From contig NZ_JAAGLV010000023.1 of NCBI RefSeq assembly GCF_010548305.1, forward strand, positions 1 through 64,000: a stretch of DNA of 64,000 nucleotides. Direction: 5' to 3'. This document shows positions 16,133 through 20,157 of the stretch, one piece after another. Position 1 is the stretch's first letter. The number at the start of each line of letters is the position of its first letter. The stretch is from Streptomyces sp. SID13031. GTDB taxonomy: Bacteria; Actinomycetota; Actinomycetes; Propionibacteriales; Kribbellaceae. The position numbers and the translations under genes are program-made. The notes beneath the pieces are model-generated. The model was not told where the DNA came from, searched no databases, and saw only the letters and a program-made list of their open reading frames with translations.

Positions 16133-16903
16133 TCAGGAGGCCTTGGTGTCGCCGAGGCGGGGCTTGATGTGGTCGTCGATGGATTCGCCGGCCTTGAGGA
16201 GCTCCTTGGCCTTCTCGGCGTACATGTCGACGTACTCCTGGCCGGACAGCTCCATCATCGCGTACATGATCTCGTCGGTGACCGAGCGGAGGACGAAACG
16301 GTCGCGTTCCATCCCCTCGTACCGGGAGAAGTCGAGCGGCTTGCCAATCGCCACGCCGGGGCGGATCAGCCGGGGCAGCCGGCGGCCGGGCTCGCGGATC
16401 AGGAACTTCGGCCAGACCGTACCGGGCGGGTTCAGCTTCTCGGTGTCGATCATCGCCACCGGGATGACCGGCACGCCGGCCACGATCGCCATCCGCGCCA
16501 CGCCGGTCTTGCCCTTGTAGAGCCGGCCGTCGGGCGAGCGGGTGCCCTCGGGGTAGATGCCGAACAGCTCACCCTTGGCGAGGATCTCCAGCCCGGCGTT
16601 CAGCGCGGCCAGCGAGGCGCGCCCACCGGAGCGGTCGATCGGGATCTGCCCGATCGAGCGGAAGAAGGTCGCCATCACCCGGCCCTTCAGCCCGGGCTGG
16701 GTGAAGTACTCCTGCTTGGCCGGGAAGATGATCTGCCGGGGCACCGCGACCGGCAGGAACACCGAATCGGTGAACGCCAGGTGGTTGCTCACCAGCAGCG
16801 CCGGCCCGGTCGAGGGAATGTTCTCCAGCCCCTCGACCCTGGGACGGAAGAGGAGCTTCGCAATCGGTCCGACGAAAAACCGCCTGAGGAACAAGTACAG
16901 CAA
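16133..16903 (-). CDS. 1-acyl-sn-glycerol-3-phosphate acyltransferase (PlsC family)
   Basis: About 256 residues. NHLAFTDS (HX4D catalytic motif) and YPEGTRSPDG (acceptor motif) identify the PlsC family, which acylates lysophosphatidic acid at the membrane to phosphatidic acid. A start at GTG 16921 is possible. However, GGAGGTGAAG lies immediately before TTG 16903, and starting there gives MLYLFLRRFFVGPIAKLLFRP, the usual N-terminus of actinobacterial homologues, so TTG 16903 is preferred. The DUF2237 gene follows within 6 nt. Confidence 0.92.
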   Translation of the reverse strand: MLYLFLRRFFVGPIAKLLFRPRVEGLENIPSTGPALLVSNHLAFTDSVFLPVAVPRQIIFPAKQEYFTQPGLKGRVMATFFRSIGQIPIDRSGGRASLAALNAGLEILAKGELFGIYPEGTRSPDGRLYKGKTGVARMAIVAGVPVIPVAMIDTEKLNPPGTVWPKFLIREPGRRLPRLIRPGVAIGKPLDFSRYEGMERDRFVLRSVTDEIMYAMMELSGQEYVDMYAEKAKELLKAGESIDDHIKPRLGDTKAS

Positions 16904-17045
16904 CGCCTTCACCTCCGTCACTCGGCAGATACCCGGTGCAGGACACTACGGTCCACCATCCTCCTCAAGCAACGTGACCGCCAGGAATAGGCGGGTTGCA
17001 CTCTGTGTTGTGTCGTGATTGCAGACTGGGTGCGATGTCGGTCAC

Positions 17046-17209
17046 GGCACCTCGCGGTGTCTGTCGTTCGAGCGATTGCGGTGGTCAGGTGCGTGCATCG
17101 CGGTGCTTGAGCAGCGTCCTCGATGCGGAGCATCGTGGACGCTGGTCAAGTGCCGCGAGGTGCGTGCCTGGGCGCCGGAAGCGCCGAACGACAGACACCG
17201 CGAGGTGCC
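17046..17209 (+). repeat. 164-nt nested hairpin element, candidate structured RNA
   Basis: The outer arms (17046-17070 and 17185-17209) are a perfect 25-bp inverted repeat starting GGCACCTCGCGGTGTC. Inside lie arms 17086-17110 and 17146-17170: 18 of 25 positions are Watson-Crick, six more are G-U on the plus strand, one is a mismatch. The tip (17114-17142) is GCGTCC-T-CGATGC / GCATCG-T-GGACGC. On the minus strand the six wobbles become A-C clashes, so a plus-strand RNA is favoured. It lies about 85 nt upstream of the esterase ribosome site, in the 400-bp gap 16904-17304, which has no gene. Confidence 0.6.
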
Positions 17210-17304
17210 TGGTCGTGGTCGACACCCGCGCCGGGGTGGGCGGGTGGCCCTGCGGCTGCGACCATTGGCGTCTCAGGATGTATGCGACCCGTCGAGGAGT
17301 ACCC

Positions 17305-18069
17305 GTGCCAGTGCAAGCTCACGCGGAAGAGTTCCGCAGCCCAGGATCCGGTGCGAACGCCGCGACCGGGGTGCTGCTGAGTCACGGATTCACCGGCTCA
17401 CCGCGCTCGATGCGGCCGTTCGGCGAGCACCTGGCCACCGAGGGGTACGGGGTCGCCGTACCGCGGCTGCCCGGGCACGGTACGCGTTGGCAGGAGATGA
17501 ACAACACCCGCTGGCAGGACTGGTACGCCGTCCTGGACGACGAGCTCGAGCGCCTCCGCAAGGAGCACGACCGGGTCTTCGTGGCCGGCCTGTCGATGGG
17601 CGGCTGCCTGGTACTGCGCCTCGCGGAACAGCACGGCGCCGACATCTCCGGCGTGATCCTGGTCAACCCGTCCGTGCGCACCGACGACAAGCGGCTGGCG
17701 CTGCTGCCGGTGCTGCAGCGGCTGGTGCCGTCGTTCCCGGGGATCTCGAACGACATCAAGAAGACGGGCGTCGACGAGGGCGCCTACTCGCGGATGCCAC
17801 TGCGCGCCCTCTACTCGCTGTCCCAGCTGTGGACGGTCACCCGCGCGGATCTGGCCAAGGTGACGCAGCCGGTGCTTCTTTTCCGCAGTACTGTCGATCA
17901 TGTCGTGGAAGCGAGCTCGGGCCGGGCGATCCTGTCGTCGATCTCGTCCCGCGACGTGACCGAGACCCTGCTCGAGGACAGCTATCACGTGGCCACTCTG
18001 GACAACGACGCACCGCGCATCTTCGACGACTCCACCGCCTTCATCGAGCGGATCGCCGCCGATGCGTGA
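17305..18069 (+). CDS. Alpha/beta-hydrolase, carboxylesterase (Est30/monoglyceride lipase type)
   Basis: 254 residues from GTG 17305, chosen because GAGGAG at 17294-17299 sits 5 nt upstream; the open frame extends further but without support. VLLSHGFTGSPRSMRPFGEHLA supplies the oxyanion hole (HGFTGSP), GLSMGG the nucleophile Ser, STVDHVV the Asp, and EDSYHVATLD the His. This pattern is that of bacterial carboxylesterases acting on short-chain or monoacylglycerol esters. It overlaps the next gene by 8 nt. A large folded element precedes it in the 5' region. Confidence 0.9.
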   Translation: MPVQAHAEEFRSPGSGANAATGVLLSHGFTGSPRSMRPFGEHLATEGYGVAVPRLPGHGTRWQEMNNTRWQDWYAVLDDELERLRKEHDRVFVAGLSMGGCLVLRLAEQHGADISGVILVNPSVRTDDKRLALLPVLQRLVPSFPGISNDIKKTGVDEGAYSRMPLRALYSLSQLWTVTRADLAKVTQPVLLFRSTVDHVVEASSGRAILSSISSRDVTETLLEDSYHVATLDNDAPRIFDDSTAFIERIAADA

Positions 18070-18927: not shown

Positions 18928-20157
18928 GTGCAGGTCACCGAGACGGTCGAGATCACCGGCCACTTGATGGATACCGGGTTGCTGTCCCGGGTCCTCGACG
19001 ACATCCGCGGGTACGGCGGTGAGTACACGCTGGACAAGTTCGACCTCGGCTACGACAAGGACGACCCGTCCACCGTGCGGATGACCGTCGGCGCCGACGA
19101 CGAGGAAGCGCTCCAGCGGCTGCTGATGCGGATCCAGACCAAGGGCGCGAACCTGGTCAACCCCGGGACGCCGGAGATCTCCGAGGTACTCCAGGACGGC
19201 GTCTTCCCCGACGGCTTCTACTCGACCACCAACCTGCCCACCAGCGTTCGGCTGGACGGCCGCTGGGTCTCGGTGCGCAACCCCGAGATGGACTGCGGGC
19301 TGCTCGTCGACGGCACCGACGTCCGGACCATCCCGATGTCCGAGGTGAAGGCCGGGATGCGGATCATCTCCAGCGCCCAGGGCGTCAAGGTCACTCCCCC
19401 GCTCGTCGCGCACACCGAGGAGTCCTTCGGCTTCATGGAGTCGGAGGTCTCCAGCGAGAAACCCCAGCGGGTGCTCGTCAAGCAGGTCGCCGACGGCATG
19501 CGCGAGGCGAAGGCGGCCGGGCTGAAGGTGCTCTGGGTCGGCGGCCCGGGCATCGTGCACACCGGCGCCGCGCCGGCCATGGTTGCGATCGTCGAGGCGG
19601 GTTTCGTCGACGTCATGTTCGCCGGCAACGCGCTCGCGACGCACGACATCGAGTCCTCGCTGTACGGGACGTCGCTCGGCGTCGACCTGGCTCGCGGCCG
19701 CGGTGTGGAGCACGGCCACGAGCACCACATCCGCGCGATCAACACGATCCGCAAGTCCGGCTCCATCGCGGCGGCGGTCGAGTCCGGCGTACTGACCTCG
19801 GGCGTGATGCACGCGCTGGTGAAGAAGGGCAACAAGTTCGTCCTGGTCGGCTCGGTCCGCGACGACGGCCCGCTGCCGGACGTCTACACCGATGTACTCG
19901 CGGGCCAGCGCGCGATGCGCGCCGAGCTGGAGGGCGTCGGCTACTGCCTGATGGCCGCGACCATGCTCCACTCGGTTGCCACCGGCAACATCTTGCCGGC
20001 GTCCGTCCCGCTGACCTGCGTGGACATCAACCCGGCCACCGTCACCAAGCTCGCCGACCGCGGCTCCGCCCAGGCTCGCGGCATCGTCACCGATGTGGGC
20101 CTCTTCATCGAGCAGCTCGCCCGCGAGCTCTCCCCGTCGTACGCCGAAACGAAATAA
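18928..20157 (+). CDS. TIGR00300 family LOR/SDH bifunctional-domain protein
   Basis: 409 residues. It begins VTETVEITGHLMDTGLLSRVLDDI and contains NPGTPEISEVLQDGVFPDGFYSTTNLPT, both typical of TIGR00300, and later VLWVGGPGIVHTGAAPAMVAIVEAGFVDVMFAGNALATHDIE, the conserved LOR/SDH nucleotide-binding region. Relatives act on ornithine or arginine-derived substrates (the C-terminal half of cyanobacterial ArgZ/AgrE has ornithine cyclodeaminase-like activity). The enzyme activity of this stand-alone version is not known to me. GGGGAGG precedes GTG 18928; a GntR-type palindrome sits upstream. Confidence 0.9.
   Translation: MQVTETVEITGHLMDTGLLSRVLDDIRGYGGEYTLDKFDLGYDKDDPSTVRMTVGADDEEALQRLLMRIQTKGANLVNPGTPEISEVLQDGVFPDGFYSTTNLPTSVRLDGRWVSVRNPEMDCGLLVDGTDVRTIPMSEVKAGMRIISSAQGVKVTPPLVAHTEESFGFMESEVSSEKPQRVLVKQVADGMREAKAAGLKVLWVGGPGIVHTGAAPAMVAIVEAGFVDVMFAGNALATHDIESSLYGTSLGVDLARGRGVEHGHEHHIRAINTIRKSGSIAAAVESGVLTSGVMHALVKKGNKFVLVGSVRDDGPLPDVYTDVLAGQRAMRAELEGVGYCLMAATMLHSVATGNILPASVPLTCVDINPATVTKLADRGSAQARGIVTDVGLFIEQLARELSPSYAETK

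Follow-up and report, generated by a model that had tools for sequence, protein, structure and literature searches.

A hairpin element lies between two divergent genes, an acyltransferase gene on the minus strand and an alpha/beta hydrolase gene on the plus strand, in the 64,000-nucleotide stretch of DNA analyzed here (the window). The features of the locus are as follows.

16133–16921, minus strand: flanking acyltransferase gene (PF01553, by domain match)
17046–17209, plus strand: whole hairpin element, with the plus strand as the sense (wobble-pairing) strand (from the fold and from its absence in relatives)
17046–17070, plus strand: left outer arm, in the family's variable but complementary zone (25/25 complementary; family covariation)
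17086–17110, plus strand: left inner arm, within the conserved core (24/25 pairs, 6 of them G-U)
17087–17096, plus strand: AGGTGCGTGC, first copy of a direct repeat (from the sequence)
17121–17135, plus strand: terminal stem-loop CGATGCGGAGCATCG (from the fold and the family alignment)
17146–17170, plus strand: right inner arm, within the conserved core (24/25 pairs, 6 of them G-U)
17158–17167, plus strand: AGGTGCGTGC, second copy of the direct repeat (from the sequence)
17185–17209, plus strand: right outer arm (25/25 complementary to the left outer arm)
17305–18069, plus strand: flanking alpha/beta hydrolase (esterase-like) gene (PF12146, by domain match)

A gene at 18928–20157, co-directional with the esterase gene, encodes a protein with ArgZ-like domains at its C terminus and a LOR/SDH region at its N terminus.

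The original prediction, made from the letters of this DNA, described perfect 25-bp outer arms and inner arms that pair at 24 of 25 positions with six mismatches on the minus strand, and both descriptions are exact. The plus-strand fold of 17046–17209 contains 74 pairs, eight of which are G-U. The six that fall in the inner arms (at 17090, 17091, 17094, 17095, 17104, and 17105) become, by complement, A-C on the minus strand; the sole inner-arm mismatch is A17097/G17159. Within the first AGGTGCGTGC, GTGCGTGC pairs with the second copy through four G-U and four G-C pairs. The claim that the hairpin pairs on one strand only was correct in that the plus strand folds more stably (−160.3 versus −125.7 kcal/mol as RNA, positions 17030–17225) and overstated in that the minus strand still folds strongly; z-scores were −16.0 and −13.1, respectively, and none of 200 shuffles was equally stable on either strand. 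Folded as DNA, 17046–17209 gave −91.2 for the plus strand versus −71.3 for the minus strand, a minus-strand hairpin weaker by ∼20 kcal/mol. No Rfam covariance model reached its gathering score in the window stretch or in six related loci; the only models to appear were of miRNAs, far below that score.

The hairpin had also been assigned to the 5′ region of an esterase operon. In five genomes whose flanks are 86 to 93% identical (G027, G004, G024, G020, and G028), this locus holds 1 to 9 bp where the window has 165 to 173, and three further genomes with flanks 80 to 84% identical (G008, G025, and G036) have likewise short gaps. These gaps imply that the window copy is most simply an insertion, and comparison of sequences points to a dispersed mobile family as its source. 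A role in the esterase operon is unsupported, because the element is missing there in close relatives and other copies lie in varied gene contexts; these observations also rule out a locus-specific riboswitch or esterase leader. The operon setting of the window hairpin is incidental.

Between the two arrangements that the prediction had entertained, many loci for a mobile element and one for a regulatory element, the genome sides with the first. Its 8.52 Mb (134 contigs) contain 49 sequence matches, many of them partial, which on refolding yield 12 hairpin loci (L001, L002, L004, L005, L007–L010, L014–L016, and L019), against single-locus regulation. With the window as query, 35 of the 36 other Kribbella genomes drawn gave a match, G008 being the exception. 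A covariance model of the core (R1) matched all 38 Kribbella genomes searched, the window's own included, with 2 to 68 matches each, numbers that exceed the copies present, since both strands of a single hairpin can be hit.

The family extends beyond Kribbella. In an even draw of the class that included the window's own genome, R1 at E ≤ 1e-4 matched 58 of 394 genomes and 17 of 138 genera (16 of the 137 other genera), in a search that scored eight candidates per genome under stricter filters. From these matches we folded 29 loci, each from a different genome; 27 made stems with 45 pairs or more on one strand in the stretch folded. Many of them share, by eye, GTGCATCGCAAGGCG ... CGCCGCGAGGTGC, together with ends like CTAGTG or CTAGGG. 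One of these loci, L313, was used as a DNA query and returned 43 plasmid records (40 Streptomyces, two Streptantibioticus, and one Embleya); three of the matches cover at least 80% of the query, and 23 of the 25 matches listed have no gene beneath them in a gene table that is itself incomplete. We also applied R1 to 55 loci of named genomes that match the core exactly; it recovers the element at seven Kribbella loci and, with a weak score of 22 bits, at a single Microbacteriaceae locus. Among the open-license papers listed in searches by terms and by core letters, we found no published description of the hairpin family.

We aligned 93 long copies of ∼164 nt, the covariation test that had been proposed, and found pairing kept despite variable outer arms. 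All four Watson–Crick types occur at 17 of the 24 outer-arm pairs, and the pairing cells of the outer arms comprise 2200 Watson–Crick, 49 G-U, 8 A-C, and 68 other combinations. The outer arms are thus hypervariable yet complementary and the core is conserved, the reverse of the usual MITE, in which the ends are conserved. Four core G-U pairs, contributed by two GTGCGTGC copies, are kept in 90 to 92 of the 93 copies. Three non-Watson–Crick core pairs are fixed as well (A-G in 92/93, A-G in 82/93, and U-U in 91/93); A-G and U-U pairs are tolerated in RNA helices, and these three may be a protein-binding feature of the RNA. The likeness between arms that had been pointed out, CACCTCGCGGTG versus GCATCGCGGTG, is present, and the dispersed copies back the history of copying that it hinted at. 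Double Watson–Crick changes in the outer arms (n = 310) divide into 175 transition-type and 135 transversion-type changes. Transitions can pass via G-U; the many transversions, together with few mismatched intermediates, suggest that arm-to-arm DNA correction also helps keep the outer arms matched. Two palindromes of 84 and 51 bp with the same arm type (L310, G029:5931433–5931516; L311, G033:3807187–3807237) have little or no core and look like internal-deletion forms.

The G-U pairs are strongly biased toward one strand. Copies elsewhere without wobble bias had been named as the sign of a repeat at the DNA level only; nearly all of the 100 hairpins compared are biased on the same strand, although L007, for one, is even (4:4). 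On a tree of the 93 copies, single changes from a Watson–Crick pair led to G-U 96 times, to A-C 16 times, and to other mismatches 82 times (95, 15, and 83 in a repeat run, parsimony on FastTree trees giving small differences from run to run); the counting covers all register pairs, including those outside the consensus fold. G-U exceeds A-C whether the changes arose from AT pairs (32:3) or GC pairs (63:12), and in arms (32:5) as in core (64:11), with p about 4e-15 for the overall inequality when events are taken as independent. If neither selection nor mutation distinguished the strands, G-U and A-C would be expected in equal numbers. For reference, we counted changes in 12 columns within the element that are unpaired or mismatched; these underwent 16 transitions and 24 transversions, from which ∼8 G-U and ∼8 A-C are expected per 24 other mismatches; relative to this expectation, G-U is ∼3.5-fold in excess and A-C is not. 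The core alignment has 97.5% of its cells paired, versus 91.1% in shuffles and 28.7 to 49.3% when slid, and 136 cells changed on both sides versus 35.6 in shuffles. The family-wide G-U excess, the tree changes, and these controls support the initial argument that strand-biased wobble reflects selection on one strand's pairing. Sense-strand pairing is probably under selection, and we infer that the selected form is RNA.

The family resembles an IS630-type MITE in being short, noncoding, and multicopy, with empty sites in relatives. TA occurs at both ends of 28 of the 93 copies, and its frequency falls with distance to the nearest relative: 18 of 29 copies have it where that relative shares 95% identity or more, and the figures drop to 7/30, 2/24, and 1/10 in successively more distant classes. 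All eight copies in two near-identical sets (five in G016 and three in G033) have CTAG at both ends, although the TA at the ends of young copies can be taken instead as belonging to the palindrome. By eye, the place of L010 is occupied in G027, G025, and G028 by a single CTAG or CTAA, with differing adjoining sequence. IS630 targets CTAG. Of the 38 Kribbella genomes, 15 encode DDE_3 transposases, and a scan of 30 IS630 loci for inverted repeats, in which flanking TA was required, found them in 14, all with C before and G after the TA. In these 14 elements, 27 of 28 ends begin TAGTG and the inverted repeats match at 17 to 22 of 24 positions. By eye, one IS630 end (L283) matches the ends of 540-bp elements at 25/25 and G016 hairpin arms at 19/22. 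The window copy has neither TA ends nor a clear target duplication, and its ends do not match those of IS630 elements. The putative link of the hairpin family to IS630 is drawn from the ends only.

For 34 of the 96 intergenic copies, a gene end falls between −6 and +3 nt from the element, and by side the near-junction gene ends number 39 of 90 for 3′ versus 7 of 102 for 5′. The TAG of CTAG is a possible stop codon, and an element that starts with G would leave it intact, which may make CTAG a safe insertion site.

Other elements with related ends were seen. In G028, L133–L138 are 540-bp TAGTG-ended elements at several places, 97 to 99% alike except for L137 (∼81%), with ∼160 internal nucleotides that match their reverse complement at ∼71%. 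The window's own genome contains TAGTGTCCTGCGTCTGAAATT-type ends at C41:52705–52964 (260 bp) and C69:187777–188233 (457 bp), neither of which reads as a hairpin, and at C113:362517, where, at the contig end, an IS30-like transposase seems by eye to interrupt the element.

As a palindromic mobile repeat, the family stands out by its strong and unusual orientation relative to replication. The sense strand opposes the replication fork in every one of the 67 copies that were placed in ten Kribbella genomes; 35 of these copies lie on the right replichore and 32 on the left. These copies are the best-scoring 62 of 300 matches in the ten genomes plus five found by another route, and the core-less short derivatives L310 and L311 are outside the count. 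We took dnaA, found in 13 Kribbella genomes, as the origin (G002, G014, and G019 contribute none of the matches listed) and treated the main contig of G031 as a circle. Of 15 other contigs with at least two copies among the matches listed, 14 carry all copies on one strand; the remaining contig reads +,+ and then −,− along its length, as expected if it spans an origin. When the window was placed by synteny in 11 genomes, its plus strand opposed the fork in all of them. As controls, 14 IS630 transposase genes or fragments from three Kribbella genomes lie eight along and six opposed, and five 540-bp TAGTG elements (the divergent L137 aside) lie three along and two opposed. Outside Kribbella, where we took the strand richer in G-U as the sense strand, 47 copies were typed, 40 of them with a usable origin, and 31 are opposed and nine along (p = 0.0007); oriented by motif, 26 are opposed, nine along, and five undecided.

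Two other candidate causes of this polarity were rejected. Gene contexts, taken from a simple gene finder, place 96 of 100 copies between genes and four over a called gene. Co-directional gene pairs around the 96 intergenic copies have the element antisense in 45 cases and sense in 17. In nine complete genomes (38 copies), however, this split is 10:9 while replication orientation is absolute, and the remaining copies split 35:8. Composition skew would act the opposite way: leading strands tend to be G- and T-rich, and the window sense strand is itself G- and T-rich.

Several known repeats share single traits with the family, as far as the passages compared describe them. RUP of pneumococcus, considered together with IS630-Spn1, is a short noncoding repeat with a TA target and IS630-like ends (PMC2229807). 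It resembles the present family in being short and noncoding and, more tentatively, in the TA at young ends and in ends like those of an IS630 element; in those passages it differs from a single continuous hairpin with conserved core and variable ends, one-strand wobble, and replication polarity. YPAL (RU-2) of Yersinia is described there as a 168-bp palindromic mobile repeat with empty and filled sites (PMC2229807), and is supported elsewhere by a conserved-structure score (PMC2267715); it lacks TA ends and makes target duplications of 3 to 26 bp, and strand or replication bias goes unmentioned in the passages compared. Correia (NEMIS) elements of Neisseria are MITEs whose transcript stem-loop is a proposed RNase III target (PMC2229807). 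In the descriptions compared, they differ in hosts and lengths, and RNase III action on the present hairpins is a guess. REPINs are small dispersed hairpins with compensatory changes (PMC3116915), and as portrayed there the REPIN/RAYT system differs in size and organization from a family whose young copies have TA at CTAG and IS630-type ends. Precedents for polarity are the IS200/IS605 family (IS608) and Tn7 with TnsE, whose orientation follows chromosome replication, IS608 excision being favored with the transposed strand on the lagging template (PMC5371812). In the part of that account compared, both are autonomous and use other chemistry; in the present family the sense strand is not on the lagging template.

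The reading that we tentatively prefer is a nonautonomous IS630-type MITE with a selected sense-strand RNA hairpin, in which wobble weakens the DNA hairpin on the lagging-strand template. A DNA palindrome of 80 bp without mismatches would be unstable. G-U pairs would permit full pairing of the RNA and at the same time leave A-C mismatches in the opposite DNA strand; the element would persist only where this mismatched antisense strand is the lagging-strand template, leaving the sense strand opposed to the fork. The RNA would probably be a double-stranded substrate of an RNase III-type enzyme or a stem bound by protein. Strand-biased pairing and fork orientation fit together if a sense RNA hairpin is needed while its single-stranded DNA form is costly; selection rather than mutation would then account for the wobble, and the cost as DNA for the polarity. 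As counterpoints, the antisense DNA hairpin is still very stable, such that the stability effect may not suffice for 67:0; the 135 transversions among the 310 outer-arm changes, with their few mismatched intermediates, fit DNA arm-to-arm correction equally well; and the polarity is weaker outside Kribbella.

The main rival is fork-coupled one-way insertion, in which a transposase or other machine works on one strand at the fork, in the manner of Tn7 or IS200/IS605, and thereby makes the polarity at insertion. We consider it possible, if on the doubtful side. A ratio as extreme as 67:0, even in the best-scoring part of 300 matches, would follow directly, the five near-identical and hence young G016 copies are all opposed, and orientation biases of Tn7, IS608, and multiple IS families are on record in the part of the literature compared (PMC5371812). 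Such a machine would have to recognize the hairpin, however, and the same machinery appears unbiased in IS630 genes (8:6, some of them fragments) and 540-bp elements (3:2), both small samples.

An ordinary palindromic MITE is unlikely to be the whole account. Its G-U pairs would be inherited from a founder, consistent with the four that are fixed in nearly all copies, and its arms would be matched by quasi-palindrome correction or by the fit of a transposase at both ends, consistent with the frequent transversion double changes. Yet the changes newly arising on the tree are biased too, in arms and core alike, whereas correction alone predicts equal G-U and A-C. IS630 repeats that match at only 17 to 22 of 24 positions indicate that transposase need fails to explain near-perfect arms, and a founder is silent on polarity.

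We regard as quite improbable a third arrangement, in which the folded sense RNA itself meets the fork, for example in RNA-templated insertion primed from the nascent leading strand, which moves or keeps the element. Were it true, absolute orientation and selection on RNA pairing would be explained together, and a small, replication-coupled, retroelement-like hairpin would have spread through actinomycetes. Least probable of all is a strand-biased mutation, favoring C>T and A>G on the sense strand without selection, for although the single fork orientation of the tested Kribbella copies would let asymmetric mutation act in one sense and the 12 unpaired or mismatched columns show eight A>G and no T>C (T being rare there), the same columns show more G>A (six) than C>T (two), and two favored mutation types would be needed because GC-derived (63:12) and AT-derived (32:3) changes are both skewed, all on small counts.

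Hairpins related to this one are found across several actinomycete families and also on Streptomyces plasmids, and no Rfam family accounts for those compared (the window stretch and six related loci). Palindromic repeats of this kind are usually filed as inert MITEs. If the present pattern holds, both RNA folding and the replication fork have shaped this one, and its polarity makes a testable case of the way a genome tolerates long palindromes. The comparison of G-U with A-C, combined with fork orientation, gives a quantitative handle on what keeps palindromic repeats, which may be the folding of one strand, perhaps as RNA, and the exposure of a DNA hairpin on the other.
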